Source of the DNA: a virus
DNA length: 26,114 nucleotides
Direction: 5' to 3' (one strand)
IMG/VR virus record: IMGVR_UViG_3300046010_004062
Coordinates: 1-26,114 of that record
Shown: one piece after another, positions 6,215-26,114 of the stretch
Layout of the letters: each line of letters starts with the position of its first letter
Numbering within the stretch: the stretch's first letter is position 1
The notes under the pieces: model-generated
Databases searched by the model: none
Told to the model about the DNA's origin: nothing
Seen by the model: the letters and a program-made list of their open reading frames with translations, nothing else
Made by a program: the position numbers and the translations under genes

Positions 6215-6221
6215 ATAATAT

Positions 6222-6659
6222 TTAGACTATGCCATTCATCATTTTGTTCCACTCAATGGCAGACTTGATGGCAAAGTTTCTATTATTGAGTGCTTTCAAA
6301 AATTCTTCCACCATTTTAATTTTAATTTCTGTGACAGAAATTTTTGACTTAAGTTCAATTAGTTTTGGATCTGCGTCCATGAATTTATCAACATCTGTCT
6401 TTAAAATATCCAATTCAAACGGTTCTTCTTTCCAGTCTGCAAGTTCTTCTTCAGAAGCCTTGCCAGTGTAAATTTTCCATTTACGCAAACGCAAAATGGC
6501 AAAGTCATGTTGGTACTTCGTCAAAAGTAATTTAAGATCCGTAAGTTGATTAAGATACTTGGAGTGTATTTGAGGTATCTTAAGAGACTCTATACCTAGT
6601 TCTGTAGAGTCTATTTGAGAGTCTTTAGTTATAGAGTTCTTTAGTTCTTCTAGATTCAT
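6222..6659 (-). CDS. uvsY: UvsY-like recombination mediator
   Basis: Loads the UvsX recombinase onto gp32-coated single-stranded DNA. Recognised from the N-terminal pattern LEELKNSITKDSQIDSTEL, which follows T4 UvsY (LEDL...KKD..IDSTKL), the central charged helical region, and the ending NRNFAIKSAIEWNKM (T4: SRGFAIKHIQDMRAF). At 145 residues it is close to T4 UvsY (137). It is first in the minus-strand operon, followed 7 bases later by uvsW. The start is preceded only by a weak AAAG, so initiation may be modest. The leader from the predicted start near 6688 is about 28 bases and rich in AGAAC/CTTTAAAG repeats. The uvsX partner is not in the window. Confidence 0.9.
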   Translation of the reverse strand: MNLEELKNSITKDSQIDSTELGIESLKIPQIHSKYLNQLTDLKLLLTKYQHDFAILRLRKWKIYTGKASEEELADWKEEPFELDILKTDVDKFMDADPKLIELKSKISVTEIKIKMVEEFLKALNNRNFAIKSAIEWNKMMNGIV

Positions 6660-6716
6660 CTTTAGTATTGTTCTTTAAAGTTCTTTTTAAGAGAACTATA
6701 GAGTATCTTTAGATAA
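6585..6716. repeat. Degenerate short repeats over the uvsY start and leader
   Basis: On the plus strand, units related to TAGAGTCTTTAG and GTTCTTTA recur about eight times (for example near 6605, 6618, 6633, 6670, 6679 and 6700), including a small inverted pair GTTCT/AGAAC near 6680-6696. They cover the first codons of uvsY as well as its leader. They could be regulator sites or simple drift in AT-rich DNA. Confidence 0.35.
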
Positions 6717-6722
6717 AGTCAA
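6695..6722 (-). promoter_or_regulatory. Sigma70-like promoter for the uvsY-uvsW operon
   Basis: On the minus strand TTGACT (5 of 6 to the -35 consensus, 6722-6717) and TATAGT (5 of 6, 6700-6695) are separated by 16 bases. Predicted start is near 6688, about 28 bases before the uvsY ATG. Confidence 0.65.
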
Positions 6723-6737
6723 ATAAATATATTTGAC
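6718..6737. promoter_or_regulatory. Perfect palindrome between divergent promoters
   Basis: Eight-base arms GTCAAATA (6718-6725) and TATTTGAC (6730-6737) flank a 4-base centre. Each arm contains most of one -35 box, of the uvsY promoter on one side and the sugar cassette promoter on the other. It may be an operator, or it may simply reflect two back-to-back -35 boxes. Confidence 0.6.
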
Positions 6738-6760
6738 ATTTCTTTATTATGTCTTATATT
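6733..6760 (+). promoter_or_regulatory. Sigma70-like promoter for the sugar cassette
   Basis: TTGACA (perfect -35, 6733-6738) and TATATT (5 of 6 to the -10 consensus, 6755-6760) are 16 bases apart. The predicted start near 6767 leaves a leader of only about 7 bases before the ATG at 6774 and no Shine-Dalgarno. It is the only convincing promoter seen for the whole 6774-16215 block. Confidence 0.7.
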
Positions 6761-6773
6761 ATTGTGAGTACTT

Positions 6774-7436
6774 ATGGCAAAACTATTAATCAAATTTCCA
6801 ACCCGTAATAGACCTGAAAAATTTAAAAAAGTCTTACAAAGATACATCGATGGGCTTTCCGGCAAACATGATGTAAAATTTGTAATAACAATGGATCATG
6901 ATGATTCAACGATGAATACGCCAGAAATTAAAGACTGGTTGAATTCATTGCCTGTAAAAATTAAATACAACTATGGACATTCTAAATCTAAAATTGAAGC
7001 AGTCAATGCTGATTTAGAAAATGAAGACGCAGATGTGCTGCTACTAGCGTCTGATGACATGGTACCACAGTTAAAAAACTACGATGACATTATTTTTGAT
7101 TGTTTTCGACAAGTCTTTCCAACATTTGATGGTGCAATAAAGTTCCATGATGGGTTGAGAAATGACGATCTGATGACATTGTGTGTGATGGGTTGGCCTC
7201 TATACAAGGAATTTGGATACATTTATCATCCAGAATACACCTCTGTATATGCTGACAATGAACAAACAATTGTTTTGAAAAAAATGAATAAGTTTGCGAC
7301 ATCTGATACTTGTATTATCAAACATGATTGGTCTCCAGAACCATGGGATGACCTTCATGCAAGAAATGAAAATTCTGAAATGTATCAAAAAGACAAATTG
7401 ATTTTTGATAAACATATGAAAGAATTGTTTGCATGA
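6774..7436 (+). CDS. Glycosyltransferase-like protein, GT-A fold (first cassette gene)
   Basis: 220 residues. The N-terminus (LLIKFPTRNRPEKFKKVL) resembles the first strand of GT2-type sugar transferases. Acidic motifs DHDD at 41-44 and SDDM at 93-96 sit where GT-A enzymes bind the metal and nucleotide sugar. Later VYADNEQT fits the acceptor-side acidic motif. Substrate unknown. It is the first gene after the divergent promoter and overlaps the next gene by ATGA at 7433-7436. GC content is lower than in the replication genes, though less extreme than in the later cassette. Assignment to a numbered family is uncertain. Confidence 0.7.
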   Translation: MAKLLIKFPTRNRPEKFKKVLQRYIDGLSGKHDVKFVITMDHDDSTMNTPEIKDWLNSLPVKIKYNYGHSKSKIEAVNADLENEDADVLLLASDDMVPQLKNYDDIIFDCFRQVFPTFDGAIKFHDGLRNDDLMTLCVMGWPLYKEFGYIYHPEYTSVYADNEQTIVLKKMNKFATSDTCIIKHDWSPEPWDDLHARNENSEMYQKDKLIFDKHMKELFA

Positions 7437-8113
7437 TAAAGTATTTGACATACTTGAATAGTGGATGTAAAGACATATGTGACAACATGTTGTTGTCTGC
7501 ATCTAATGTAGGTATATTAAAAGATCAATTTAAAATTATTGCGTTTGACAAGCCAATTTATGATTATTATTCCAATAAAGGAATTGACATTGATCTATAT
7601 GTAGATTCACCTGAAGAAAAATATCATGAATGGAGTTGGGATATTGATTCTAAATTTAGACATTTAGTAAAAAATAAGTGGTCTATTATAAAAAATCAAT
7701 ATACAAAGTATAAAAACTTGGTTTGGTTAGATACTGATGTTGTATTTTTTAAAAACCCTCTAGAACAATTAAAGAATTGTTTGGTACCAACCTTTCAAGT
7801 TGATTATCCAGTTGCATGTGCATGTACTGGATTTATGTATTTTCCAAACAATAATTTGAGTGAAAAAATTGTAAACGACCTAGGATCGCAAAATACAGAA
7901 GACGATCAATTGATTTGCAATAGTTATTTGAGATCAAATGCTATACAAAATCAAATCAAGTTTTTTGATTTAAATTTGTTTCCAAATGGAAGTTATTTTT
8001 ACGACCACAAAGGAACTGATAAAAATACGGCCCTTATTTTGCATTGTAATTATATCTTGGGTTTAGAAAACAAGATAAATAGATTGAAAGACATCGGAGC
8101 TTGGTATTTGTGA
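7433..8113 (+). CDS. Nucleotide-diphospho-sugar transferase-like protein (Nucleotid_trans/GT77-like)
   Basis: 226 residues. The core motif NLVWLDTDVVFFKNPL at about 95-110 contains the DxD metal-binding triplet (DTD at 100-102) followed by the aromatic/Lys-Asn-Pro pattern typical of Nucleotid_trans-type transferases. Downstream EDDQLICNSYL matches the family's 'DQ...N' motif, and LILHCN near the end may supply the last metal ligand. Soluble, with no membrane segment. It starts inside the ATGA overlap with the previous gene, and its stop overlaps the next start (GTGA), so translation is coupled. Sugar and acceptor cannot be read from sequence. Confidence 0.7.
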   Translation: MIKYLTYLNSGCKDICDNMLLSASNVGILKDQFKIIAFDKPIYDYYSNKGIDIDLYVDSPEEKYHEWSWDIDSKFRHLVKNKWSIIKNQYTKYKNLVWLDTDVVFFKNPLEQLKNCLVPTFQVDYPVACACTGFMYFPNNNLSEKIVNDLGSQNTEDDQLICNSYLRSNAIQNQIKFFDLNLFPNGSYFYDHKGTDKNTALILHCNYILGLENKINRLKDIGAWYL

Positions 8114-8949
8114 TTTATTCTAGAGAAGATTTAAGACCAACACCACGATATCCAACTTATCCTCCGTACCATGTTGGGGATTATTTGGAAGATTATTTTT
8201 ACAATAAATTTGTTGAAAAAAAATTAACGTTAACTAGAGACTACATTGGTATCAGTTGGACAACTTTATACTGTCAAAACCAAGATCAACAAATCCAATC
8301 ATTTTTAAATAGTTTGGATTCAAGTAAAAAGTATTTTACTGTCTGTCAGCATGATGATGCTCCACGACACATTCTTCCACCTGACACAATTTGTTTCTCT
8401 GCGGGTGGAAATGTAAACGGACCAAATATAAAACCAATTCCGCTTATTTGCTCTTCTATACCAATAAAACCCATTGAAACCAAAAAACAATACTTAGCCT
8501 CTTTTGTTGGTTCAATGACTCACCCAATAAGAGCAAGAATGGCTCAAAAATTACAATATTTGTCAGATTACAAAATATTGATAAAAATGTGGAACCCCAC
8601 GGTTGAAAAATCAGAAATGGATGTTTTTTTTAATTTAGCAAGTCAAAGCAAATATTTACTATGCCCAAGAGGATATGGTCTAAATTCATTTAGATTGTAC
8701 GAAGCATTTCAATTAGGGTGTGTTCCCGTAATTATAACAGATAAATTCTTCTTACCTTGGACTGATGAATTAAATTGGAATGATTTTTCTGTATTGATTG
8801 ATGAATCAAAAATCGATCACATTGATGATATATTAAGAAATATAGATGATGATCAATACAATAAAATGATCACAATTGGAAAAAATTTGTATCCAAAGTA
8901 CTTTACTTTAGATGCTTTAGTTGAAAATATTACAAAAAGATTATCATGA
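8110..8949 (+). CDS. Exostosin-like (GT47) glycosyltransferase
   Basis: About 280 residues. The C-terminal half carries the exostosin signature: YLASFVGSMTHPIRARM at about 128-144 and YLLCPRGYGLNSFRLYEAFQ at about 182-201, followed by LGCVPVIITD. In animals and plants such enzymes extend heparan or cell-wall glycans; bacterial and viral homologues add sugars to surface polysaccharides. I place the start at GTG 8110, because it forms a GTGA overlap with the previous stop, matching the ATGA couplings around it; a TTG at 8101 is also in frame. It overlaps the next ATG at 8946-8949. GT-B fold is expected, so no DxD motif is needed. Confidence 0.82.
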   Translation: MIYSREDLRPTPRYPTYPPYHVGDYLEDYFYNKFVEKKLTLTRDYIGISWTTLYCQNQDQQIQSFLNSLDSSKKYFTVCQHDDAPRHILPPDTICFSAGGNVNGPNIKPIPLICSSIPIKPIETKKQYLASFVGSMTHPIRARMAQKLQYLSDYKILIKMWNPTVEKSEMDVFFNLASQSKYLLCPRGYGLNSFRLYEAFQLGCVPVIITDKFFLPWTDELNWNDFSVLIDESKIDHIDDILRNIDDDQYNKMITIGKNLYPKYFTLDALVENITKRLS

Positions 8950-9671
8950 AAAAAATATTATTTGTCATAGCCAATTATTCAGACTGGAAGCAAAGGTTTT
9001 TTGAAAACAATTTTTCTCCAAGAAATAAAAAATTTGCTGATATGCACGGGTATGAGTATATCGTAAGTTCCGGTGGGCTTTTGTTCCGAAATAATCCAAC
9101 TTGGTGGAAATTTACACTTGTCAAAGAAATGATTGACAATGGTACTCTTCAAGATGGAGATGAGTTACTGCATTTAGATGCGGATATGAGAATAGACAAG
9201 TTTGATAAAGACTATCCATGCAATAAATCATTTACGGTATGCATAGACAACGGAAATACATTTTGTATGGGTTCATATAAATTAAAAATCAATGATTGGT
9301 CTAAACAATTAATCTATAATATTCTTGATGAAAAATTATGGTTAAAGAAACAACACGATCCTCATTGGATGTCGTTTCGTGAGCAAGCTGCTTTTTACAC
9401 TTTGTGTGGTGTGGTCCCCCATAGTTGGGTTTCATTTCTAGAATTGCCAAATTACGGCTGGCACCAAAATAAAACTGAGGATACTGTGTATTCTCTAGAA
9501 GAATTGCACAAAAATGTTGAAGTTTTGGGACCAGAGTGGAATACTACGTTATTGTCCGAAGAAGAAAATGAAATTGGTCCAGCTCTAATGAAATACAATA
9601 TTACAAAATCTAAAAAGGAAGACACAATTATTAGACACTTTGCTGGAGGACAAGTGTGGAAAATAATATAA
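8946..9671 (+). CDS. GT34-like (galactosyl/mannosyltransferase-type) glycosyltransferase
   Basis: 241 residues with a GT-A layout: N-terminal strand KKILFVIANYSDW, a YEYIV segment, then WWKFTLVKEM, the metal-binding LLHLDADMR (DAD at 78-80), REQAAFYTLCG (position of the 'DQ.A..Y' motif) and near the end IIRHFAGGQ, which fits the conserved His-Phe-x-Gly ligand of GT34-type enzymes. The donor sugar is probably a UDP- or GDP-hexose but cannot be chosen. Coupled on both sides: ATGA with the previous gene and TAATG with the mutase gene. Confidence 0.72.
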   Translation: MKKILFVIANYSDWKQRFFENNFSPRNKKFADMHGYEYIVSSGGLLFRNNPTWWKFTLVKEMIDNGTLQDGDELLHLDADMRIDKFDKDYPCNKSFTVCIDNGNTFCMGSYKLKINDWSKQLIYNILDEKLWLKKQHDPHWMSFREQAAFYTLCGVVPHSWVSFLELPNYGWHQNKTEDTVYSLEELHKNVEVLGPEWNTTLLSEEENEIGPALMKYNITKSKKEDTIIRHFAGGQVWKII

Positions 9672-10783
9672 TGTTTTATGATTATTTAATCGTGGGAGCA
9701 GGATTTTTTGGTTCAGTTTTTGCTAGATTAGCAACAGATGATGGAAAAAAATGTTTGGTAATAGATAAAAGAAACCATATTGCTGGGAATTGTTACACCG
9801 AATCTATTGAAAATATAAATGTTCATGTTTATGGACCTCATATTTTTCATACAAATGACAAAAATATTTGGAATTTTGTAAATCGTTTTGCAGAATTTAA
9901 TAATTTTATTCTTTCCCCAAAATCTAAAAGTAAAGATAAATTGTATTCACTACCATTTAATATGAATACTTTTTATGAAATATGGAATACAAAAACTCCA
10001 GAAGAAGCTAAACAAAAAATAGAAGAACAAAAATTTAAAGGAATTCCTTCGAATTTAGAAGAACAAGCATTGTCTTTAGTAGGCAAAGATGTATATGAAA
10101 TTTTAATTAAAGACTATACTACCAAGCAATGGGGAAAATTACCAAAAGAATTACCACCTTTTATAATTAAAAGATTACCAGTACGATTTACTTACGACAA
10201 TAATTATTTTAATGATCGTTATCAAGGCATTCCGGTAGGAGGATATACAAAATTATTTGAAAATATATTAAAGGATATTGAAGTAGTTTTAAATGTTGAC
10301 TATTTAAAAAATAAAAACTATTACAATAATATTGCCAAATACGTAGTATATACTGGCTGCATCGATGAATTTTTTAATTATGAATTTGGGAAGTTAGATT
10401 ATCGTTCTTTAGAATTTAAAACAGAAATACTTGAAACAAAAAATTATCAGGGATGTGCAATTATGAATTATAATGATGTCAACATTCCTTGGACACGTAT
10501 TGTAGAACATAAACATTTTGAAAAATGTGATTCAGAAAAAACAGTAATCACAAAAGAATATCCAAAAAAATATGAAATAGGGTCTACTCCTTATTATCCA
10601 ATCAATGATGAAAAAAATAATAGTATTTACAAAAAATATAAAGAAAAAACAAAAACATATTCAAATATTATATTTGGTGGTAGACTAGCCGAGTATAAAT
10701 ATTATGACATGCACATGGTCATTGCTTCAGCAATGACAAAATATAAAAATCATATTAGTGGTAATATAGAGAAAGAATTATGA
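9671..10783 (+). CDS. glf: UDP-galactopyranose mutase
   Basis: FAD enzyme that interconverts UDP-galactopyranose and UDP-galactofuranose, the donor for galactofuranose residues. N-terminal FAD-binding motif DYLIVGAGFFGSVFA (about 4-18), IDKRNHIAGNCY (31-42) and GPHIFHT (55-61). Also TTKQWGKLP (150-158), VRFTYDNNYF (171-180), RYQGIPVGGY (183-192) and the C-terminal GGRLAEYKYYDMH (336-348). Arginines at 172, 276 and 338 fit conserved positions. The full 370-residue family length is present, so it is probably active. The ATG at 9671 overlaps the previous stop (TAATG) and gives the canonical N-terminus; an in-frame GTG at 9656 is less likely. Its substrate UDP-galactose must come from the host. 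Confidence 0.96.
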   Translation: MFYDYLIVGAGFFGSVFARLATDDGKKCLVIDKRNHIAGNCYTESIENINVHVYGPHIFHTNDKNIWNFVNRFAEFNNFILSPKSKSKDKLYSLPFNMNTFYEIWNTKTPEEAKQKIEEQKFKGIPSNLEEQALSLVGKDVYEILIKDYTTKQWGKLPKELPPFIIKRLPVRFTYDNNYFNDRYQGIPVGGYTKLFENILKDIEVVLNVDYLKNKNYYNNIAKYVVYTGCIDEFFNYEFGKLDYRSLEFKTEILETKNYQGCAIMNYNDVNIPWTRIVEHKHFEKCDSEKTVITKEYPKKYEIGSTPYYPINDEKNNSIYKKYKEKTKTYSNIIFGGRLAEYKYYDMHMVIASAMTKYKNHISGNIEKEL

Positions 10784-11715
10784 TAAAAAAACAAACCATA
10801 ACTGTCGATTTTGTAGATTTTTGGCCAAATTTTGTTAAAAATGATAATTATTTTTATCATCTATTGAGTCAAGAATATGATGTAATAATAACCGAAAATA
10901 AACCCGATCTTTTGTTTCATAGTGTAGACTATTTTAGACAACAGGGACATAAAAAATATAATAACAACCACACTAAAAAAATTTACTATACGGCAGAGCC
11001 ACCACATATCCATAGACCAGATTATAACGAAAGTCATTTCTCTTTTACATATGAAGATACTGGGGATAGTAGAAATTATAGATTACCACTGTGGGTATTG
11101 CATTTAAATTGGTTTAATGTACCACATTCAGATGATAGAGATCAGTCTTATCTCCATTCGATTGAAGAGTTTTTAAAACCAAAAGATGCAGAATATTTGT
11201 GGGATACCAAAAAAGAATTTTGCTCTTTTATTAACACTCAACCATTTGGTAGGAGAGTAGAATTTGTTCCCAAGTTAAATCAAACTCAATTTGTTCATTG
11301 TGCTGGGCGTTTATATAATAATGTAAATGGGAATATAATTGGAAGAGGTGATCAAAGGTGGAAAATAGAATATCTAAAACATTTTAAATTTAATGTAAGT
11401 ATGGAAAACTGTGATGATTATGGATATGTAAGTGAAAAAATTATTCATGGAATGTTTGCAAACTGTATTCCAATTTATTGGGGATCGAATGCCGTAATCA
11501 AAGATTTTAATTCAAAATCTTACATTAATTGGCATAATTTTAATAATGATGAAGAAACTATTGAAAAAGTTATGGAACTAAACACAAATAAAGTAAAATA
11601 TTGTGAAATGATGTCTCAACCATGGTTTTATAATAATGAAATACCTATTAATGTTCAACCAAAAACAATTTTAAATTTTATAAATGAAAGAATATTAAAC
11701 AATGCCACTAGATAA
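10780..11715 (+). CDS. GT10-like (alpha-1,3-fucosyltransferase-type) glycosyltransferase
   Basis: 311 residues. It has the GT10 hallmark in the C-terminal half: FKFNVSMEN (202-210), GYVSEKIIHGM (215-225), then NCIPIYWGS (228-236), the donor-binding region of alpha-1,3/4-fucosyltransferases. Before it, FCSFINTQPFGRRVEF (147-162) and HCAGRLYNN (173-181) also fit the family. If donor specificity is conserved it would use GDP-fucose; no GDP-fucose synthesis gene is in the window, so the donor would come from the host or from a gene elsewhere. It starts in an ATGA overlap with glf and overlaps the next gene by 14 bases. Confidence 0.85.
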   Translation: MIKKQTITVDFVDFWPNFVKNDNYFYHLLSQEYDVIITENKPDLLFHSVDYFRQQGHKKYNNNHTKKIYYTAEPPHIHRPDYNESHFSFTYEDTGDSRNYRLPLWVLHLNWFNVPHSDDRDQSYLHSIEEFLKPKDAEYLWDTKKEFCSFINTQPFGRRVEFVPKLNQTQFVHCAGRLYNNVNGNIIGRGDQRWKIEYLKHFKFNVSMENCDDYGYVSEKIIHGMFANCIPIYWGSNAVIKDFNSKSYINWHNFNNDEETIEKVMELNTNKVKYCEMMSQPWFYNNEIPINVQPKTILNFINERILNNATR

Positions 11716-12235
11716 AAATGGAAAAGATTTATTACTTTATAAAAATAATTGTAAAATTTTTATAGAAACCGGATCTGCCGATGGTGGGGGAATAGAATCA
11801 GCACTTAAAGCAGGATTTGAAAAAATTTTTAGTATTGAATTAAATCCCGATTTATATAATAAATGCAAAGAAAAATTTAAAAATCAGAGTAATGTTTATC
11901 TATACTGTGGAAGTTCTGAGATATTCTTAAAACAAATAATAGAAATTGTGGATCAGCCATTTTTATTGTGGTTAGATGCTCATTACTCAGGTGGTCCATA
12001 CATTGGCGATTTGATGCATAATTATTTACCAAAAGAATTAAGTTCTATAACACATCTTGTTCATAAATTTAAAAATTCACCAATATTAATTGATGATATG
12101 AATTTTTATATTAATGATAAAACTTTTTGCAGTAATGTAGAAAATTTGTTAAAACAAATAAAACCTGATGGAAATATCAAATATGAGCAATCTTGTGATC
12201 AAGAAGCCAAAAGTTTGTTTTTAACAGTGTTATAA
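11702..12235 (+). CDS. Methyltransferase-like protein (Rossmann fold)
   Basis: 177 residues. The first strand and turn, IFIETGSADGGGIESALKAG, resemble the SAM-binding motif I of class I methyltransferases (E-x-G-x-x-x-G). FSIELNPDLYNKCKEKF resembles motif II, with an acidic end to strand 2. LLWLDAHYSGGP fits motif IV, and SPILIDDMNFY resembles a later strand with two Asp, as in small sugar or FkbM-related methyltransferases. The target could be a sugar made by the neighbouring transferases. It overlaps the GT10-like gene by 14 bases and is followed 11 bases later by the DUF3431-like gene. No Shine-Dalgarno seen. Function beyond the fold is inference. Confidence 0.6.
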   Translation: MPLDKNGKDLLLYKNNCKIFIETGSADGGGIESALKAGFEKIFSIELNPDLYNKCKEKFKNQSNVYLYCGSSEIFLKQIIEIVDQPFLLWLDAHYSGGPYIGDLMHNYLPKELSSITHLVHKFKNSPILIDDMNFYINDKTFCSNVENLLKQIKPDGNIKYEQSCDQEAKSLFLTVL

Positions 12236-12246
12236 AAATTATATAA

Positions 12247-12882
12247 ATGAACAATCAATTAATTATAGCTCGTTATAATGAAGATTTATTTTGGCTAAAT
12301 GAATGGCAAAGTCAATTTGATATTGTCGTTTATAATAAAGGAAAAGATGATTTAAAACAAGATTATAAAATTATCAATCTTCCTAATATCGGACGAGAAG
12401 CCCACACGTATCTTTATCATATTGTAAATAATTATGATACTTTAGCTGAAAATAATATTTTTTTACAAGGAAACATCAAAGATCTCGGTCCCAATGTTTA
12501 TCAAGATTTAAATTGTTATCTAAATGAAATAAAAGAAAAAGGATATTCTGCCAATGGTGTGTACTATACCTGTGGTAATTATTATAAAAATATAGATTTT
12601 TTAGCAGATCCTTTATACAAGGATCAAGTTTTATCTAAACATTTTAGACTTTCTGATATTACTTTTAAAGATTATATTTTAAAACATTTTAAAGTTCTTC
12701 CAGTGTGTATGATATATTCAATGAAAGGTTGTTTTGGTGTTAGTAAAAAAAATATACAAAGTAGACCAAAAGAATTTTATTTAAATTTGTTAGACTCTAT
12801 ACCGGACTATCATACAGTCGAAGAAGCACATTTTTTAGAAAGACTTTGGGCATTTATATTCACTGAAAAGGTAAATTTATAA
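12247..12882 (+). CDS. DUF3431-like protein, probable glycosyltransferase-related
   Basis: 211 residues. It matches the pattern of the uncharacterised DUF3431 family: LIIARYNEDLFWL at about 5-17, VVYNKGKDD (27-35), LPNIGREAHTYLYHIVNNYD (45-64) and NNIFLQGN (69-76), with a C-terminal ERLWAFIF. The family is common in fungi, algae and large viruses and often sits near sugar transferases; to my knowledge its activity is not established. Here it is embedded between two methyltransferase-like genes of a sugar cassette and coupled to the next by TAATG at 12880-12884, which supports a glycan role. Confidence 0.7.
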   Translation: MNNQLIIARYNEDLFWLNEWQSQFDIVVYNKGKDDLKQDYKIINLPNIGREAHTYLYHIVNNYDTLAENNIFLQGNIKDLGPNVYQDLNCYLNEIKEKGYSANGVYYTCGNYYKNIDFLADPLYKDQVLSKHFRLSDITFKDYILKHFKVLPVCMIYSMKGCFGVSKKNIQSRPKEFYLNLLDSIPDYHTVEEAHFLERLWAFIFTEKVNL

Positions 12883-13529
12883 TGACATATTCTTTACACG
12901 AATTAGATGATAAATTGTTAAAATATTTATTTTATGAAAATGGATTTTTTATTGAAGCTGGTGCAAATGATGGTGTAGCACAATCTAATACCTTATTATT
13001 TGAACAAAAATTAAATTGGAAAGGTATTTTAATAGAACCAAACCCACACAAAGCAAACTTATGTAAAATAAATCGACCAAATTCCATTGTTGAACATTGT
13101 GCTTTGGTTAGCAAAAATTATAATCACCCTTTTATTGAAGGTGATTTTAATCATAATGATTATGCCAATAGTTTAATGAGTATGGTTTTAGACGAGGGTG
13201 ATGAGTGTGATTTAAATTACAAAAATCATAAAAATTATAAAAAAAACCATGAAAATATTATATCAGTACCAGCCAAAACCTTAACATCAATTTTAGAATT
13301 TTATAAAGTAAAAAAAATAGATTTACTTTCTTTAGATGTAGAGGGATATGAAATTTCTGCATTAAATGGATTAAATTTTATTCAATTTTCTCCACTCTAT
13401 TGTTTAATAGAAACAACAACAGATGAAAATAGAATTACCATGATAACCGCATATATGAATGACAATAATTATAATGTGATTGAAAGATTGTCTGGAAATG
13501 ATTTTTTGTTTAAGTTAAAAAATGATTGA
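12882..13529 (+). CDS. FkbM-family methyltransferase
   Basis: 215 residues. It has the FkbM pattern: FFIEAGANDGVAQSNTLLFE at 22-41 (SAM-binding motif I), WKGILIEPNPHKANLC at 46-61 (motif II) and IDLLSLDVEGYEISALNGL in the C-terminal third, a signature of the family. FkbM-type enzymes usually O-methylate sugars or polyketides, and phage and bacterial ones often lie in O-antigen gene sets, so methylation of a sugar made by the cassette is the likely role. Start ATG overlaps the previous stop (TAATG) and the stop overlaps the next gene by 8 bases. Confidence 0.88.
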   Translation: MTYSLHELDDKLLKYLFYENGFFIEAGANDGVAQSNTLLFEQKLNWKGILIEPNPHKANLCKINRPNSIVEHCALVSKNYNHPFIEGDFNHNDYANSLMSMVLDEGDECDLNYKNHKNYKKNHENIISVPAKTLTSILEFYKVKKIDLLSLDVEGYEISALNGLNFIQFSPLYCLIETTTDENRITMITAYMNDNNYNVIERLSGNDFLFKLKND

Positions 13530-14205
13530 CATTAAAACATATATTTTACATTGTAAAAAATTTAAAGAAAGAAAATTATTTATTACAAATCAAATAAATA
13601 ATTTATTTTCTAATTATGAATTTTATGAAAATTATGATGGTGACGAACTTACTACAGAAATTATAAACAAATATTATGATCCATCTCCAGAAAAACAATT
13701 ATTCAAATTTAAATTATGGTTTGAACAAAATAGGGGCCACGCAGTGGCAAGACTTTTAAATACATCAGAAATTTCTTTAACTATAAAACATTATGAAGTT
13801 TTGCAAAAAATTGCATACTCTTCTGATCCATATGCAATTGTTTTGGAAGATGATGTAATATTTGATTCAAATTTTTTACAATTATTTCAAAAATATTTAA
13901 GTGAAACACCAAAAAATTTTGATGTTGTTTTTATGGGTTCTGGTGCAAATTTAAAACCAACAAATATTATACCAGATAAAATCTGGTATTTAAAAACACA
14001 TCCGGCTTCTAAATGTGCAGACTCATATTTAATAACAAAAAAAGCGGCTAATGAAATAGTTCAAACATATACTCCATTTAATATCTGCTCTGATTATGAA
14101 TTAGCATATCAAATGTATCTACACAATCATAAAGTATATTGGTGGGAACCATCTTTAGTAAAACAAGGTTCGGAAATGGGATTATTTAAATCATCTTTAA
14201 GGTAA
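13522..14205 (+). CDS. GT25-family glycosyltransferase (LPS type)
   Basis: 227 residues. GT25 enzymes add galactose or glucose to lipopolysaccharide or to collagen. Visible features: N-terminal IKTYILHCKKFKERKLFI (strand and basic helix typical of the family), YENYDGDEL (36-43), HYEVLQKIAYSSDPYAIVLE with the catalytic EDD at 109-111, FDVVFMGSG, then ASKCADSYLITKKAA and a C-terminal SDYELAYQM. Length is close to bacterial GT25 proteins. Overlaps the previous gene by 8 bases and ends 6 bases before the next ATG, where AAGG may act as a ribosome binding site. Confidence 0.88.
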   Translation: MIDIKTYILHCKKFKERKLFITNQINNLFSNYEFYENYDGDELTTEIINKYYDPSPEKQLFKFKLWFEQNRGHAVARLLNTSEISLTIKHYEVLQKIAYSSDPYAIVLEDDVIFDSNFLQLFQKYLSETPKNFDVVFMGSGANLKPTNIIPDKIWYLKTHPASKCADSYLITKKAANEIVQTYTPFNICSDYELAYQMYLHNHKVYWWEPSLVKQGSEMGLFKSSLR

Positions 14206-14211
14206 ATATAA

Positions 14212-15306
14212 ATGAAAAAAATTGCTTGTATTAAATTTGCAGGATTCGCAACTGGCGGTACAGAAAAAGCTTTGCAAAATATTGCAGTTACTTTAGCAGA
14301 ATCAAAAAAATATCATGTAGATTACTATTACACCAACGCAGCACCATTTTTAAATTGTAATTTTGTGCATCCAGATAATTCTTTAGAACAAAAAAAATGG
14401 GTTGAATCTTATGGTGTTAAATCTATTCCCGTTTTTGTAGAATCAAAAATTGGAAACAAATCACCCTTTGAATGGAATAATACAAATTTTTGGAATTTGT
14501 TTAAAGAATCTGATTATGATGTAATACAAACAGCAAGAGGGGGATACACGGAGTATCCGTTTAATTTAATAAATCATACTCCTATTATTGATGGAATACA
14601 CAGCGATGCTGGTGAGGATAAACCAAACATCAAAAAAGCAATATTGATTTCCAAATGGCAAGCCGACAAATGGGCTTCAAATGGTGGGAATATAAAAAAA
14701 GCTGTTATTATACCAAATTTAGTATTTGTACCAGAAAAAAAACCAAGTACGTTAAGAAACAGATTAAACATACCAGAAGATGCATTTGTTTTTGGTTTTC
14801 ATCAAAGAAATGACCCAGCTCTGTTTTCGCCTGTTGCATTACAGGCATATCAACACATTCAAAAAGAAAATGTTTATTTTGTTTTACTTGGTGGGAGTGA
14901 CAGACATCGCCAGTATGCTAAAGAAAATAATTTAAAAAATGTGTATTTTTTAAATTTTACTTCGGATTTAAATGAAATACATGATTTTTTAGAGGGTATT
15001 GATGTTTATTCACATTCTAGACTTGATGGCGAAGTTTGCTCAGTTGCTATTATAGAAGCCATGTCACATGGTAAACCAATCGTCACTCATCCAGGAACAG
15101 TTTCTATGGGTCATTTAGAACAAATAGAAGGGTGTGGTTATATGGCTTACAACGTTGAAGAATATGCTAACAAACTTAAACTAATTAAAGACAATAAAGA
15201 AATTTATTCTGCAATGAGTGAAAATACATTAAATAAGTATTTTGAAAAATATTCTTACCACAAAGTAAAACAACAAATTATTGATCTTTATTCCGAAGTA
15301 TTATAA
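14212..15306 (+). CDS. GT4-like glycosyltransferase (GT-B fold)
   Basis: 364 residues. The N-terminal Gly-rich loop ATGGTEKALQNIAVTLAE (about 13-30) is the acceptor-side signature of GT4-type enzymes. A linker with KKAILISKWQADKWA follows. The C-terminal donor domain starts near NRLNIPEDAFVFGFHQRNDP and holds the E-x7-E region GEVCSVAIIEAMSHGKPIV, followed by HPGTVSMG. Full length, so probably active on a nucleotide sugar. The gene lies 6 bases after the GT25 gene and 18 bases before the last cassette gene, which has no ribosome binding site of its own. Sugar not predictable. Confidence 0.87.
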   Translation: MKKIACIKFAGFATGGTEKALQNIAVTLAESKKYHVDYYYTNAAPFLNCNFVHPDNSLEQKKWVESYGVKSIPVFVESKIGNKSPFEWNNTNFWNLFKESDYDVIQTARGGYTEYPFNLINHTPIIDGIHSDAGEDKPNIKKAILISKWQADKWASNGGNIKKAVIIPNLVFVPEKKPSTLRNRLNIPEDAFVFGFHQRNDPALFSPVALQAYQHIQKENVYFVLLGGSDRHRQYAKENNLKNVYFLNFTSDLNEIHDFLEGIDVYSHSRLDGEVCSVAIIEAMSHGKPIVTHPGTVSMGHLEQIEGCGYMAYNVEEYANKLKLIKDNKEIYSAMSENTLNKYFEKYSYHKVKQQIIDLYSEVL

Positions 15307-15324
15307 AAAATTATTAAAATAAAA

Positions 15325-16215
15325 ATGAATATTTTATTAGCATATCATTCTGTTCCTGAAAAGGATATTTGGAATACCCCAGTTGGAATTGGTAAATCTT
15401 TTCAAAAAAAGGGACATAATGTATTTTATGTCCCTAATTTAAATCCAAATAATTTAACTTTTGATAATATTTACACAAATATAAATGACGCTGATTTTAT
15501 TTTGTTTTGTTGGTGTGGTCCATCGGAATCTTTTGATTATGAAATAAAAAAATTAAAAAACAATACAAATAAAAAGATTTATCTGGAATTAGGTGACGAA
15601 CCACAAACTTTTTTATATAATCAAAAAAGAATATTTTTTGCGGATGGTCTATTAACACCTGATTTGAGATGTCATAAACACTATCAAAGCAAAGGATTTC
15701 CTTCTTATTGGTTAACGCATTGGTGTGATGATAAAATTTTTTATAAAAAAGAAAATTCAAACAAAAAAAATATTTGTGTTACAACATGCGGCAACAGGCC
15801 ATTTGTAGACAAATTATCTGAAAAATTTAAAGACCAATTTATTAATCAAAAAGTTTGGAATTATGATAATACAGATTTTTTTAATTCAGGAACTGTTTGT
15901 TATCAATATGCTAGATATGATGAAATTACAAGAAGATTATTTGAAGCGGGTGGTTGTGGAAACGCTATATTGACAAATAGAATCTCTCCTGAAAGTGGTA
16001 TTTACGAATTGTTTACAGAAGATGAAGATATGGCTTTTTTTTCAACCGAAGAAGAATGTCTTGCAAAAATGGACAAACTCTTAAATGACAGTGTTTATAG
16101 AAATAAACTTTCAACTAATTTGTATAAAAAAATAACAAGTAAACATATGGTTGGTAATAGAGTGGATGAAATTATACGAATTTATAATAACGATTCTTGT
16201 TTGCAAAAGGTATAA
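15325..16215 (+). CDS. GT-B glycosyltransferase, Glyco_trans_1_2/CgeB-like
   Basis: 296 residues. N-terminal strand MNILLAYHSVPEKDIW, a FILFCWCGPSESFDY segment, and a C-terminal module of the Glyco_trans_1_2 type: YARYDEITRRLFEAGGCGNA followed by ILTNRISPESG, ELFTEDEDM and AFFSTEEECL, with a final helical RVDEIIRIY. Such domains occur in spore-coat and surface-glycan transferases. Last gene of the cassette; 70 bases separate it from gene 55. Its upstream gap (AT-rich, no Shine-Dalgarno) suggests translation depends on coupling or on open AT-rich mRNA. Confidence 0.78.
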   Translation: MNILLAYHSVPEKDIWNTPVGIGKSFQKKGHNVFYVPNLNPNNLTFDNIYTNINDADFILFCWCGPSESFDYEIKKLKNNTNKKIYLELGDEPQTFLYNQKRIFFADGLLTPDLRCHKHYQSKGFPSYWLTHWCDDKIFYKKENSNKKNICVTTCGNRPFVDKLSEKFKDQFINQKVWNYDNTDFFNSGTVCYQYARYDEITRRLFEAGGCGNAILTNRISPESGIYELFTEDEDMAFFSTEEECLAKMDKLLNDSVYRNKLSTNLYKKITSKHMVGNRVDEIIRIYNNDSCLQKV

Positions 16216-16251: not shown

Positions 16252-16279
16252 TTGATTATTTTCCATACCATGCTATAGT
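16252..16279 (+). promoter_or_regulatory. Possible sigma70-like promoter for gene 55
   Basis: TTGATT (4 of 6, 16252-16257) and TATAGT (5 of 6, 16274-16279) are 16 bases apart. Predicted start is at or near the GTG at 16286, giving an almost leaderless mRNA. The TATAGT -10 and the 16-base spacing match the uvsY promoter. Confidence 0.45.
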
Positions 16280-16285
16280 ATACAT

Positions 16286-16855
16286 GTGAAAAAAGCCAAA
16301 AAGAAAAAAGCCAAGCCATCGGATGCTGATTATGTAGACAATCAGCAGCTCTACGATGCCTTGGTTGAATACAAAAAGAAGTGCAAGGACGCAGATAACT
16401 CTGGAAGAAAGAAGCCAAAGTTACCAGATTACATCGGTGAGTGTGTATTGAAGATAGCAAGCCGATTGTCATATAGACCAAATTTTGCAAACTATTCCTA
16501 TAGAGACGAAATGGTATCTGATGCCGTTTTAAATTGCATAACATACATAGACAATTTTGATCCTAAGCGTTCAACCAGCCCATTTGGTTATCTAACCCAA
16601 ATTTGCTGGTTTTCTTTTGTGCGTATAATCAACAAAGAAAAGAAAGAAAAGTATGTTCAATATAAGTTTGCAGAACAACAGAACAACAAAGACTTTCAAA
16701 ATTGGTTCAATGAAACCTATGCTGGAATGGATATCGGAAGACGAGATTTTTTTGGTCTGACCGATTCCGACATGGTAAGGTTTGATGAAATGTGTCAGCC
16801 AAAAAAGGCAAAAAGAAAAAAGCGAAAGCCAAAGCCAGATCCGTTTGATCTATGA
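16286..16855 (+). CDS. 55: gp55-like late sigma factor
   Basis: Divergent sigma factor that replaces host sigma70 and directs RNA polymerase to TATAAATA late promoters, coupled to the sliding clamp. Family pattern: YVDNQQLYDALVEYKKK at about 15-31, YIGECVLKIASRLSYRPNFA, YRDEMVSDAVLNCITYIDNF, then SPFGYLTQICWFSFVRIINK, matching T4 gp55 in order and spacing. 189 residues (T4 185). Lys-rich at both ends; the terminal DPFDL may be the clamp-binding tip, by analogy. Start is GTG 16286; the only nearby ATG (16284) is followed directly by TGA in another frame, and the next in-frame ATG is deep in the domain. Overlaps gene 47 by ATGA. Confidence 0.93.
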   Translation: MKKAKKKKAKPSDADYVDNQQLYDALVEYKKKCKDADNSGRKKPKLPDYIGECVLKIASRLSYRPNFANYSYRDEMVSDAVLNCITYIDNFDPKRSTSPFGYLTQICWFSFVRIINKEKKEKYVQYKFAEQQNNKDFQNWFNETYAGMDIGRRDFFGLTDSDMVRFDEMCQPKKAKRKKRKPKPDPFDL

Positions 16856-22553: not shown

Positions 22554-22561
22554 GGATGAAT

Positions 22562-23779
22562 ATGCACAAGTTGACTTTGAGTATGATCGTAAAGAACGAA
22601 GCCCCAAACATTGAGCGTTGCTTGGCTTCATGCGCACCTTTCATTGATTACTATGTAATCTGTGATACCGGATCAACGGACAACACCAAGGAAATCATCA
22701 AGAAGTTCTTTGATGAAAAGGGAATTCCCGGTGAAATACATGACCACGAATGGTCTGATTTCGGAACCAACCGATCCAAGGCTCTTGAACTTTGCATGGG
22801 CAAGACTAAATGGGCGCTGATGATCGATGCCGATGACTTCATTACAGGAACTCTTCCTGTTGATAAGTTTGATGACAATCTTGATGGTTATGTTGTGCAA
22901 ATCAAGCGCGGTGAGTTCAAGTGGCTTCGTGCCCAGATCTTCAACTTGGGCAAGAAAAAGTGGTGGTACGAAGAACCTCTGCATGAATATGCTATCTGCG
23001 AGCAGCCAATGAATGTTGGCAAACTTGAAGGTGATTACGCTTGGGAAGTTCGTACAGAGGGTTGCCGTTCAAGATCTGTGTCGAATGACATTGAGAAGTA
23101 CACCAAGGATTATTACATTCTCAAGGGATACTTGGAAAAAGATCCAAATCAACCTCGCAAGCAATTCTATGCAGCACAATCTGCCTTTGATGCAAGAATG
23201 TTTGAAATTGCAGAAAAAGAATACCTCAAGAGAATCGAACAGGGTGGTTGGCACGAAGAAGTATTCTTCTCTTGGATGCGTGTCGGCATGTGTCGGGAGT
23301 TCCAAGGAAAGCCAGTCGAACAGATTGCCGATGCATTCATGATGGCGTTTGAATCTGCACCAAATCGTGTAGAGCCACTATACCATCTATCCTGCATCTA
23401 CAGGAAGTACAATCGTCCAAGGAATGCTTTCTTGATTGCACACCTAGGCGCTCATATTCCAGTTCCACAGAATGACATTCTATTCGTTGACAATGCCAAT
23501 TATCTGTGGGGCATCTTTGACGAGATCGGAACCACGGCTTTCTATGCAGGAATGCCCCAGTTGGGAATGCAATGCTGCCAAAAGCTCCTAAACGAGCCTT
23601 ATCTACCAGCGGAGCATCGTGAAAGAGTTCAAAACAACATGAACATCTACAGTAAGGCATTTCAGCAGTTCCAAATGAACTTGGAACAGCAGCAAAAGCA
23701 GTGGGCTGAAAAAATTGCCAAGGAAACCAATAAGACTACTTTGAAGGTGAGCCCAGAAGCAGAGACCGTTAAATTATAA
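22562..23779 (+). CDS. GT2 glycosyltransferase with helical-repeat-like C-terminal half
   Basis: About 405 residues. N-terminal GT2 domain: LTLSMIVKNEAPNIERCLAS (4-23), CDTGSTDNT (34-42) and the metal-binding MIDADDF (87-93), followed by a WWYEEPLHEYA segment with a likely catalytic acid. From about residue 190 the protein is helical, with TPR-like blocks (RKQFYAAQSAFDARMFEIAE, then EEVFFSWMRVGMCREFQGKP and VEPLYHLSCIYRKYNRPRNA), a layout seen in phage and bacterial transferases with protein acceptors. The C-terminus is Gln/Lys-rich. AAGGA at 22552-22556 favours ATG 22562 over ATG 22556. GC content resembles the replication genes rather than the AT-rich cassette. It sits just before tail genes, so a virion protein is a possible acceptor (inference). 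Confidence 0.82.
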   Translation: MHKLTLSMIVKNEAPNIERCLASCAPFIDYYVICDTGSTDNTKEIIKKFFDEKGIPGEIHDHEWSDFGTNRSKALELCMGKTKWALMIDADDFITGTLPVDKFDDNLDGYVVQIKRGEFKWLRAQIFNLGKKKWWYEEPLHEYAICEQPMNVGKLEGDYAWEVRTEGCRSRSVSNDIEKYTKDYYILKGYLEKDPNQPRKQFYAAQSAFDARMFEIAEKEYLKRIEQGGWHEEVFFSWMRVGMCREFQGKPVEQIADAFMMAFESAPNRVEPLYHLSCIYRKYNRPRNAFLIAHLGAHIPVPQNDILFVDNANYLWGIFDEIGTTAFYAGMPQLGMQCCQKLLNEPYLPAEHRERVQNNMNIYSKAFQQFQMNLEQQQKQWAEKIAKETNKTTLKVSPEAETVKL

Positions 23780-23806: not shown

Positions 23807-24196
23807 ATGGCAGATTCTTATGATTCTAGCGTAATAAGAGGGGACACCCTTCGATGGACGATGTTCGTCCGGGATTCATCCGGCGGATCTTATGATTTCA
23901 ATGGATCTACTTTGCGAATGCAAGTTCGCAATGGCTATGCTCCAGCAAAAGTGTTTGCTTCATATACGACTGGAGTGACCACCGGAAGTGTCTTGACCAT
24001 TCCAAATGGAATTTGTGGTGGAATTTCTGCAAATGCAGTTGGAAATGTTGTTGTTTGTGTTGGATCTTCGCATACAGAAAATTTTTCACCATATACAAAA
24101 GTTTTTTATGACATTCAAGAACAAAAAAGCAATGGAGACATTGAAACCCTTATTAGCGGAAATATAAATGTTCTTCCAGATGTAACAAAGGTATAA
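23807..24196 (+). CDS. BppU-N-like small tail protein
   Basis: 129 residues, beta-rich. The opening VIRGDTLRWTMFVRDSSGGS and FNGSTLRMQVRNG follow the pattern of small phage proteins (BppU N-terminal type: 'G-D-T...W...D..G...dLtG...rmqiR') that attach receptor-binding or fibre proteins to the tail. The C-terminus VFYDIQEQKSNGDIETLISG, then NINVLPDVTKV, also fits. Its stop is 1 base before the tail-fibre start, so the two are probably made together. Transcribed from the adjacent late promoter. Residues cannot define the binding partner. Confidence 0.72.
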   Translation: MADSYDSSVIRGDTLRWTMFVRDSSGGSYDFNGSTLRMQVRNGYAPAKVFASYTTGVTTGSVLTIPNGICGGISANAVGNVVVCVGSSHTENFSPYTKVFYDIQEQKSNGDIETLISGNINVLPDVTKV

Positions 24197-24197
24197 T

Positions 24198-26114
24198 ATG
24201 AGCAATCCACAGATCACAGTAACAACAAATCCACCCAATATAGTACAGGTTATTGATGGATCAATTTCCGTAAGTATACCAGCAAACGTTTTTGCGCTTA
24301 ATGGATTGGTTGGAGCCGTAGGTTTGTCTGGAAATAATGGCGTTGTTGTTCAAAATTCTGGAAACACAATAAACATTGGTATGACCAATTTTGTGTCAAG
24401 CATCAATAATTTACGAGGAACCGTTGCACTGTCTGGTGATAGCAATCTTTTGGTACAAACTTCTGGAAACACCCTGTCGTTAAGTTTAACAAATGTGGCT
24501 AAAACAAATGTTGGACAAACTTTTACTGCAATTCAGAGTTTTGCTAATGACGTTGTTCTTTCGGGAAATAGCGGTAACGTTACGCTCAAATCTGTTGGCA
24601 AAGATAATTTAGTAATGGGTTCTTCCACAAGTTTAACATCAAACACATCAAGCGTAGGCCAAAATATTGCTATTGGTATTGAAAGTTTACAATCCTCTAT
24701 AGGAGGAAACAATAACATTGGATTGGGTACTCAAAGTTTGAATGGATTGACTGTTGGAAGTTTTAATATTGCAATTGGGGAAAATGCTGGAAAAAATTAT
24801 GGAAGTGAAGGAATAACTTTAGACGCATGCAATCGTGGCATTTTTATTGGTAGAAATACTAGACCATTATCAAGAAGCCAACCAAATCAAATTGTAATTG
24901 GAGATTCAAGTATTGGTTTGGGGGCCAATACCACAGTAATTGGAAATGATTCTACAACAAAAACAAAAGTGCAGGGTCTTCTTGAATTAGATGATGGTTT
25001 GGATTCCTTGAATGTTAAAAATAAAGTAATAAGAATCGAACAACCTCAAACGATTGTGGATCCTTTCGTAGAAGGTGATGTTGGTGTACTTTGTTGGGAT
25101 GACAACAATCTTTACATAAAAACCAATCAAGGCTGGAAACAACTTGCATTGACTCCTGTTACGGGAAACCTGACTGGCATTACTTTTGATTTCAGATTGT
25201 TGCCTTCAGACTCAACCAACTACCTACGATTCCTTCGTGGAAGCAGTGCATCATATTTGGATGTCAATGGAATGACCTTCGTACAGGAAAATATTCCAAG
25301 GGTTGCTTATTATTTGAATTCGAATGGAAGCACTGGAGATCTGGCAGGTCTGTTGGTGGAAAGTAGTTCTATGAATCTATTGCCATCTTTGGAGACCTAT
25401 AATCCATCAGATCCATTTGCTCCTTGGCTAGGAACCAACATCAGTGTTGATAGCGGATCTTGCTATGGAACAAATGTATTCGGAGAATTTAATGTAAGAC
25501 GATTGACGCCTTCGGGTGTTGGTGTCGTGAGACACTTTTTATATACTGATTTAGTTGCTGGTGTTTCTGGACAATCCCACAACATTTCACTTTTTGCCAA
25601 AAATTATCAATATGATGCTTCAAACCCACTATATTTGGTAATTTCCGTAGATAATAACAATGTATTAGCATCGTTTGATTTACAAAATAATATATCTTTT
25701 ATTGAATCTGGAAATTATGCAAACCCACAACCAATTGCAAAAATTACGAACTATTCAAATGATTGGAAAAAAATTGATGTAACTTGGACATATAGAGGCA
25801 TTCCAATAGGAAATGCTGGAATTGGTTTTTATCTTTCGGCATTTGAACCTGGAACTGGGAGAGCCCTCCAAGAATATACTGCAACAAGATTTGCAAATAC
25901 AGGAATTTTAGTAACCGATATTCAATTTGAACAAAATTCTCAATCTTCTTCTTATATAAAAACCGTAGGTTCATCCGTCACAAGAAGTCCCGACAGATTA
26001 TTCATGGATGGTGCCTCTTTCTCTTCTTGGTTCTCAGTAACAAGCGGAACATTCTTGACTCTTGTTGATAATTCTTTGCAAGAAAATACATCACATACAC
26101 AAGGAAATGTAAGA
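24198..26114 (+). CDS. Tail fibre protein, N-terminal 639 residues (open at window end)
   Basis: Continuous frame from ATG 24198 to the last base. Residues 35-65 and 69-100 are a tandem duplication (VGAVGLSGNNGVVVQNSGNT versus RGTVALSGDSNLLVQTSGNT). Residues about 150-260 hold repeated IxIG turns (IAIG, IGLG, IAIG, IFIG, IVIG, TVIG), as in trimeric beta-roll stalks. Residues 282-317 contain the virion motif VEGDVGVLCWDDNNLYIKT with QGW. From about 390 a jelly-roll, carbohydrate-binding-like domain (NLLPSLETYNPSDPFAPWLG, SHNISLFAKNY, WKKIDVTW, VTDIQFEQNS, SSYIKTVGSSVTRSPDRLFM) follows. This is the classical layout of a receptor-binding fibre; AAAGG lies before ATG. The C-terminal tip is missing. 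Confidence 0.88.
   Translation, partial: MSNPQITVTTNPPNIVQVIDGSISVSIPANVFALNGLVGAVGLSGNNGVVVQNSGNTINIGMTNFVSSINNLRGTVALSGDSNLLVQTSGNTLSLSLTNVAKTNVGQTFTAIQSFANDVVLSGNSGNVTLKSVGKDNLVMGSSTSLTSNTSSVGQNIAIGIESLQSSIGGNNNIGLGTQSLNGLTVGSFNIAIGENAGKNYGSEGITLDACNRGIFIGRNTRPLSRSQPNQIVIGDSSIGLGANTTVIGNDSTTKTKVQGLLELDDGLDSLNVKNKVIRIEQPQTIVDPFVEGDVGVLCWDDNNLYIKTNQGWKQLALTPVTGNLTGITFDFRLLPSDSTNYLRFLRGSSASYLDVNGMTFVQENIPRVAYYLNSNGSTGDLAGLLVESSSMNLLPSLETYNPSDPFAPWLGTNISVDSGSCYGTNVFGEFNVRRLTPSGVGVVRHFLYTDLVAGVSGQSHNISLFAKNYQYDASNPLYLVISVDNNNVLASFDLQNNISFIESGNYANPQPIAKITNYSNDWKKIDVTWTYRGIPIGNAGIGFYLSAFEPGTGRALQEYTATRFANTGILVTDIQFEQNSQSSSYIKTVGSSVTRSPDRLFMDGASFSSWFSVTSGTFLTLVDNSLQENTSHTQGNVR

Follow-up and report, generated by a model that had tools for sequence, protein, structure and literature searches.

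We analysed a 26,114-base stretch of viral DNA, the IMG/VR virus record IMGVR_UViG_3300046010_004062 (the window), in which a cassette of twelve intact open reading frames (ORFs), most of them sugar-building, fills the interval between the T4-like core genes uvsY and gp55. The gene order is gp22, gp23 and a tail-tube protein, followed by the minus-strand genes uvsW and uvsY and by the cassette (6774-16215), which is entirely on the plus strand. Downstream and also on the plus strand follow gp55, gp47, gp46, gp45, gp44 (named from position and sequence, without a family scan), gp62 and regA. The G+C content falls from about 40 % to 24-31 % in the cassette. A previous reading of the letters, hereafter the sequence-only reading, had described a single plus-strand run of twelve genes, and this is what we find.

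Family searches on the twelve products mostly confirmed the families proposed from the letters (Table 1). Besides a UDP-galactopyranose mutase and a DUF3431 protein, both as predicted, the cassette encodes six clear glycosyltransferases, two weaker ones and two methyltransferase-like proteins. Eight glycosyltransferases had been claimed: six are clear by Pfam, while c01 is recognised by a single PHROG family and c04 by non-significant structural matches. Likewise, c09 of the two proposed methyltransferases belongs to the FkbM family, and c07, which has no significant match in Pfam, PHROG or NCBIfam, looks like a methyltransferase by its FIETGSADGG motif. For c04 we found no significant match in Pfam, PHROG, NCBIfam or PDB sequences. 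Its low-confidence model (mean predicted local distance difference test score, pLDDT, 58.7) weakly resembles domain 1 of the chlorovirus protein A064R, and the four best Foldseek matches are all the PBCV-1 capsid glycosyltransferase (2p6w/2p72/2p73; E 0.02-0.08, not significant). Profiles of c01 and c04 gave no useful match against PDB sequences. As had been suggested, the transferases are mostly from different families according to Pfam, and stop and start codons overlap or abut at 8 of the 11 junctions (ATGA at 7433, 8946 and 10780; TAATG at 12882). The predicted GTGA junction is obtained if c03 starts at GTG 8110, which may be the case.

Table 1. Features of the uvsY-gp55 locus and its surroundings (positions in the window)
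Feature	Position	Strand	Evidence
uvsY, left flank of the swap site	6222..6659	-	PHROG 231 1.2e-40
Divergent sigma70-like promoter pair	6695..6762	both	11/12 and 10/12 consensus positions
c01 glycosyltransferase-like first gene	6774..7436	+	PHROG 14945 glycosyltransferase 2e-11, sole family match; no Pfam
c02 Nucleotid_trans glycosyltransferase	7433..8113	+	PF03407 7.9e-14
c03 GT47/exostosin-like glycosyltransferase	8101..8949	+	PF03016 5.2e-22; PF24785 RXYLT1_C 5.7e-10
c04 probable GT-A glycosyltransferase, possibly GT34/A064R-like	8946..9671	+	HLDADM motif read from sequence; non-significant Foldseek
c05 UDP-galactopyranose mutase (Glf), donor synthesis	9656..10783	+	PF03275 (GLF) 7.4e-81; PDB 1i8t 7.8e-144
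c06 GT10, alpha-1,3-fucosyltransferase-like	10780..11715	+	PF00852 8.1e-13; FucT_N PF18025 7e-10; PDB 2nzw 9.5e-25
c07 methyltransferase-like protein	11702..12235	+	FIETGSADGG motif alone
c08 DUF3431 protein	12247..12882	+	PF11913 4.6e-15
c09 FkbM-family methyltransferase	12882..13529	+	PF05050 6.5e-21; TIGR01444 1.2e-13
c10 GT25 glycosyltransferase	13522..14205	+	PF01755 1e-15
c11 GT4-like glycosyltransferase	14212..15306	+	Glycos_transf_1 PF00534 2.6e-13
c12 Glyco_trans_1_2 glycosyltransferase	15325..16215	+	PF13524 3e-16
gp55 late sigma factor, right flank of the swap site	16286..16855	+	PHROG 234 4.6e-52
Conserved GT2 with tetratricopeptide repeat (TPR)-like helices, proposed priming (first-sugar) protein glycosyltransferase	22556..23779	+	fold, clade distribution
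Small neighbour protein, PHROG 1084	23807..24196	+	PHROG match
Tail fibre/spike-like protein, running off the window	24198..26114	+	PHROG 5939 tail protein 5.3e-24; PHROG 4636 tail spike 9.3e-5

Relatives of the locus were collected from IMG/VR as the best 80 of 484 loci by gp55 and the best 80 of 108 by uvsY. The pieces of these 160 fetched loci were merged per contig with a hand-made table, resulting in 54 sources with both uvsY and gp55, window included. We define the clade as the 34 contigs (the window and 33 others, the latter originating from 27 datasets) that have both flanks and whose uvsY is 57 % or more identical; the 20 contigs with a uvsY identity of 31-40 % form the outgroup. The strand of uvsY is minus throughout the clade and plus in the outgroup. 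ORFs were called mechanically and counted in cassettes from a length of at least 100 amino acids. All 34 clade contigs carry a glycan locus at uvsY-gp55, 6.4-13.6 kb long with 8-16 ORFs, a G+C content of 26-35 %, a coding fraction of 0.960-0.985 and every called ORF on the plus strand. The same interval is just 1.7-2.6 kb long with 1-3 ORFs in the outgroup. The sequence-only reading had considered such a full set at this position unusual for a phage; within the clade it is constant. The inverted uvsY accompanies the cassette in 34/34 contigs, and the inversion is absent from the 20 cassette-free ones.

The place is constant and the content changes. Grouping contigs that share at least half of their 90 %-identity protein clusters into one cassette type, we obtained 26 types from the 34 cassettes. 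At 90 % identity the 413 cassette proteins fall into 300 clusters, at 30 % identity into 126. Seven types are present on more than one contig, an observation that speaks against chimeric assembly. Three families account for the first gene in all contigs: a weakly GT25-like family in 17 (its representative matches Pfam GT25 at E 0.017, PHROG 2835 glucosyltransferase at 3.9e-5 and PHROG 24091 at 6.5e-37), a Gly_transf_sug/GT32-like family in 13 (2.5e-10) and the c01 type of the window in four. A glycosyltransferase cluster matching PHROG 2644 (1.4e-78), probably GT11, is the second gene in 17 of its 21 occurrences. Sugar-nucleotide genes lie toward the 3' end: the mean relative position of five enzyme clusters, labelled from sequences and Pfam tallies, is 0.80 in 21 of the 26 types (one contig per type), and none of 2000 within-cassette permutations placed them as far 3'. 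Pfam tallies were made on 77 non-redundant ORFs of 8 relatives and on 122 of the 126 cluster representatives, the other four being the window's own and scanned separately. Among the families listed for the relatives (the 25 commonest of 41, 46 and 48) are GDP-mannose dehydratase/epimerase, FkbM and other methyltransferases, GT2, GT10, GT11, GT25, GT6 and GT17, and some types have aminotransferase, carbamoyltransferase and thiamine pyrophosphate (TPP)-enzyme families. In a partial relative outside the 34 (L059:227-1813, 10001-13313) the c03 and c04 homologs are split between frames. The breaks also hit gp55 and gp46, so they are probably sequencing indels.

By the Kyte-Doolittle scale, hydrophobic segments are absent from 411 of the 413 ORFs in the window and the 33 related intervals, and the other two ORFs have one each; none has two or more. 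The claim that flippase and polymerase are missing thus holds. Taken together with the mostly different transferase families, this lack of export and polymerisation machinery suggests that the enzymes decorate an existing acceptor, as had been proposed, and we consider this probable. The further suggestion of one transferase per linkage, and hence about eight sugars, is conjectural.

Cassettes differ between phages with near-identical flanking genes, and one of them was exchanged recently. Nine contigs, window included, whose uvsY and gp55 are at least 95 % identical to those of the window hold five cassette types. Compared with six close relatives of another type, the window shows 90-98 % DNA identity up to position 6797, just inside the first ORF, and homology returns at 16270-16286, at gp55, in all six; the sole match inside the cassette is 246 nt at 71 % in L085. 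The whole window cassette is common to two contigs, L088/G010 and 046009_004790. For L088/G010 the DNA identity is 99.6-100 % in c05-c12, 94-95 % in c01-c03 and 91.8-95.5 % in uvsW, uvsY, gp55, gp47 and gp46. The right-hand part of the cassette, being near-identical between more divergent flanking genes, has therefore moved recently. For 046009_004790, identity is 99.8-100 % from c04 to gp44 and the left side is divergent, thus adding a left breakpoint only. Partial swaps are also found: by first ORF calls, 042905 and 042540 have 10 genes in common out of 15 each, and 8 of the 13 genes of L085 are common to two contigs of another type. Apart from the cassette, G009 and G010 align gap-free over about 40 kb. 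The uvsY-gp55 interval is a fixed swap site for glycan-type cassettes in one clade of T4-like phages, which is known from metagenomes.

A single promoter for one glycan-building operon had been predicted, and the promoter region agrees. On the plus strand, the sigma70-like site for the cassette has TTGACA from 6733, a 16-nt spacer and TATATT to 6760; on the minus strand, the one for uvsY/uvsW reads TTGACT, 16 nt, TATAGT from 6722 to 6695. A TTGAC-N-15/18-TATA-like site (a permissive pattern, used without a shuffled control) is positioned 4-26 nt 5' of the first gene in 34/34 contigs, mostly next to a divergent one for uvsY. Overall, this A+T-rich region shows no excess of promoter-like sites (83 found, 79.5 expected), and the argument for a promoter is the conserved place in all contigs and not the pattern match itself. 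We also considered late promoters. ATAAATA is found 5' of the first gene in 24/34 contigs, yet the window has no more of these motifs than chance predicts (10 found, 10.8 expected), and TATAAATA follows the GT2 gene described below in 2/27 loci only. This leaves the sigma70-like site as the sole basis for the timing, according to which the cassette is likely to be expressed early in infection.

Outside the cassette, downstream of regA, a conserved gene encodes a 407-amino-acid GT2 protein. It lies beyond the coordinates of the sequence-only reading, which missed both this gene and the swap site because they show only in comparison with relatives. Every clade locus with a gp55 at least 60 % identical and at least 9 kb of sequence past gp55 has the gene (27/27, counting the window), and none of the 7 outgroup contigs of sufficient length does. 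Matches in the phage collection are limited to 10 records (identity 21-42 %), and in four of these the match covers less than a quarter of the protein. A scan of one genome per bacterial or archaeal species, made with two peptide patterns and of low sensitivity, returned a single distant relative (30 %), from a Desulfobulbaceae metagenome-assembled genome, and no hint of the host. The AlphaFold model (21 sequences, pLDDT 87.1) predicts a GT-A domain followed by an array of TPR-like helices, the architecture of SunS. The six best Foldseek matches are SunS and ThuS (E 6e-15 to 2e-13), and VIA-align places SunS/ThuS on top (Z 22.8, 21.6 and 21.2; next protein 18.0), with the helices of O-GlcNAc transferase lower. 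A profile search against PDB sequences returned GmaR (1e-14) and SunS (5.8e-11), and the best NCBIfam match is the SunS family TIGR04195 (5.1e-9). The phage protein thus shares its GT2 domain with SunS/ThuS and GmaR and its following helical domain with SunS/ThuS; unlike them it is a conserved phage gene, and it lies below the SunS family cut-off.

An ORF of 129-140 amino acids directly follows the GT2 gene in 25 of the 27 loci, which comprise the window and 26 distinct GT2 homologs (one ORF is cut at a contig end). Next in the window comes the tail fibre/spike-like protein, with 20 % Ser+Thr, a candidate acceptor. The gene for this protein is a second variable spot, which varies block by block among phages whose flanking genes are near-identical: 79 % of it aligns to G009 and 58 % to G008.

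Further observations concern the surroundings. By megablast, the window has no near relative among 50,697 phage records, and the closest isolates depend on the gene: Melnitz and HTVC008M for uvsW (45-46 %), cyanophages such as S-WAM2 for gp23 (54 %). The gene psbA is absent from 10/10 related records, thus there is no sign of a cyanobacterial host. A 219-amino-acid ORF at 4029-4688 on the minus strand has a charged, proline-rich C-terminus and no PHROG match. In the gp46-gp45 gap, a 94-amino-acid ORF (19627-19911, plus strand) matches the carbohydrate-binding module CBM_5_12 at 7.9e-6, right at the cut-off. Permuted phage-encoded transfer-messenger RNAs (Rfam RF04321) are present in contigs G001 and G009 (L169:1335-1613, minus strand, 81.8 bits; L175:49-235, minus strand, 51.7 bits). 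The tag peptide read by ARAGORN in L169 is ANIKAAPMRMAA; for G009, ANIKAAPMRMAA was obtained solely by circular reading over the contig ends.

What do the cassettes decorate? The explanation we favour, with a confidence that approaches but does not reach an even chance, is that the conserved GT2 acts as primer on a virion protein, from which the exchangeable cassette builds out a glycan particular to each type. This role of GT2 is suggested by SunS and ThuS as best folds, by the sequence matches to GmaR and SunS, by its clade-wide presence and by the tail-type genes beside it. Early in infection the host RNA polymerase would transcribe the cassette, and GT2 would place the first sugar on a virion protein, the tail-type proteins encoded beside it being candidates. 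Before particles are assembled, the cassette enzymes would add further sugars and methyl groups in the cytoplasm, giving a branched oligosaccharide specific to the type. By analogy with chlorovirus capsid glycans, which vary between types, such a glycan would mask the surface of the particle or make it variable. Homologous recombination, both within the cassette and in the core genes on either side, would give rise to new types. The anatomy of cassette and GT2 fits a conserved primer with exchangeable extenders. We tentatively speak of phages with serotypes: a tailed lineage in which each strain may make the whole of its own virion glycan in the cytoplasm of the bacterium, with a conserved protein glycosyltransferase as primer and a cassette-exchange locus comparable to an O-antigen locus but serving virus particles, a picture that is plausible though somewhat short of an even chance.

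Several observations weigh against a virion glycan. The virion acceptor is a candidate only: a further ORF of at least 326 amino acids with 16-30 % Ser+Thr is found in 16 of the 27 GT2 loci, not all, and its likeness to tail fibres comes from the window's copy only. The 27/27 pattern stems from one clade and therefore is not an independent correlation. GT2 scores 35.5 bits where TIGR04195 has a cut-off of 350 bits, which does not make it a member of the SunS family; it may work like a SunS protein without being filed as one. Its sequence similarity to PDB entries is limited to residues 6-206, and the tight superposition covers residues 1-281 (root-mean-square deviation, rmsd, 3.1), full-length ones being loose (rmsd 7.8-10.4). 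To our knowledge, GT2 enzymes of lipopolysaccharide (LPS) synthesis such as WaaE/LgtF are not in the PDB and thus stand outside the fold comparison. G009 and G008 also vary outside the cassette, with several gaps of 0.2-0.8 kb and only 69-76 % identity beyond the head genes. Finally, GT25, GT10 and FkbM genes, all present in the cassette, are equally at home in the synthesis of lipooligosaccharide (LOS), in whose loci they are common.

One alternative, a serious one that we regard as possible rather than probable, is that the early enzymes extend or cap the host LOS core at the cytoplasmic face and that host export carries the product out. Competing phages or released progeny would no longer bind the doomed cell, and competition would diversify the types. 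A sigma70-like promoter site before the cassette is consistent with this, flippase and polymerase are unneeded for stepwise LOS extension, and the window and G009 have different cassettes between flanks that are 91-96 % identical. Modification of the host O-chain is also how such genes of pelagimyophages have been read (PMC7029224), and Sullivan et al. 2010 leave the function of the cyanophage LPS genes open (PMC3037559). Against this, the modelled clade-wide GT2 resembles a peptide more than a lipid glycosyltransferase, none of the 26 types has a multi-span membrane protein, and at least eight steps seem, in our judgement, excessive for receptor blocking. That both virion and host are decorated, or that the acceptor is of another kind, for instance a host protein or a polysaccharide that is released, is improbable, although the methyltransferase, carbamoyltransferase, aminotransferase and TPP-enzyme families of some types would suit it. 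Glycosylation of phage DNA bases against restriction, known in T2, T4 and T6 (PMC9614988) and listed among the possible acceptors by the sequence-only reading, is very unlikely: the thymidylate-synthase/dCMP-hydroxymethylase family PF00303 is absent from 10/10 related records (57-137 kb, possibly incomplete), known DNA modification uses far fewer enzymes, and wholesale swapping is not expected. Stuffer DNA was raised for the cyanophage LPS genes (PMC3037559). That the cassette is likewise non-functional cargo, filler or passing auxiliary genes is the least credible option, given the high coding fraction, the one-strand ORFs and the conserved promoter site and gene order.

The locus shares features with several known systems. 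Bacterial O-antigen and capsule loci have fixed flanks, low G+C, whole and partial swaps and genes for donor sugars and transferases, and the cassette locus, with its swappable content between constant flanks, resembles them in all of these. Unlike them it is phage-borne, and none of the 413 ORFs is a polytopic candidate for Wzx, Wzy or a ligase. Glycosylated mycobacteriophage virions have been studied. For the Glf of two rhizobial phages, no annotated glycosyltransferase is found nearby within 19 and 12 kb.

Chloroviruses have eight putative viral glycosyltransferase genes, most predicted soluble and expressed early, and a methyltransferase activity on the capsid glycan (PMC9614988), which has conserved core sugars (PMC7826918). 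Judged from genes alone, the cassette has the same mixture of mostly soluble transferases and methyltransferases. Chloroviruses infect algae, and the chlorovirus texts consulted do not mention a swap locus.

Sugar-gene clusters in T4-like phages are known already (PMC3037559, PMC7029224). The LPS clusters of cyanophages P-SSM2, S-SM2 and S-SSM7, also sugar-building blocks in T4-like phages, are reported near hli03 or phoH (PMC3037559). Here, unlike there, we find a compact swap site at one position, uvsY-gp55, in every member examined, with no tRNA in the window (hli and phoH were not searched for). In P-SSM2, uvsY and gp55 are separated by uvsW and four small ORFs that carry no sugar-gene annotation. 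The pelagimyophage host recognition cluster, hypervariable in glycosyltransferases and found in T4-like aquatic phages, is between vrlC and gp14 with fibres mixed among the transferases (PMC7029224), a position and composition that differ from the present cassette. Pelagimyophages HTVC008M and Melnitz have uvsY-uvsW-gp55 without annotated sugar genes. In P-SSM2, HTVC008M and Melnitz, uvsY, uvsW and gp55 have the same direction (Melnitz uvsY placed by position), compared to which the uvsW-uvsY pair of the window (4706-6659, minus strand) is inverted. A freshwater group in the pelagimyophage study is reported without LPS genes (PMC7029224), and lake T4-like phages with a few sugar genes have been described (PMC10611076). 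In the literature searched, which lacked many subscription papers, we found no description of a uvsY-gp55 locus that exchanges type-specific cassettes at a constant site and is accompanied throughout the clade by a partner resembling protein glycosyltransferases.

Figuratively, each type of these phages would either put on a sugar coat of its own or give its host one. Should the cassettes determine the type of the virion, the surface chemistry of the particle would be under diversifying selection and readable from DNA at one address. If instead they remodel hosts, the locus would be a clean natural series for superinfection exclusion. Under either reading, the 26 types represent natural pairings of donor-sugar enzymes with compact glycosyltransferases that are apparently soluble, and they illustrate clearly how recombination acts at one constant place in a phage genome.

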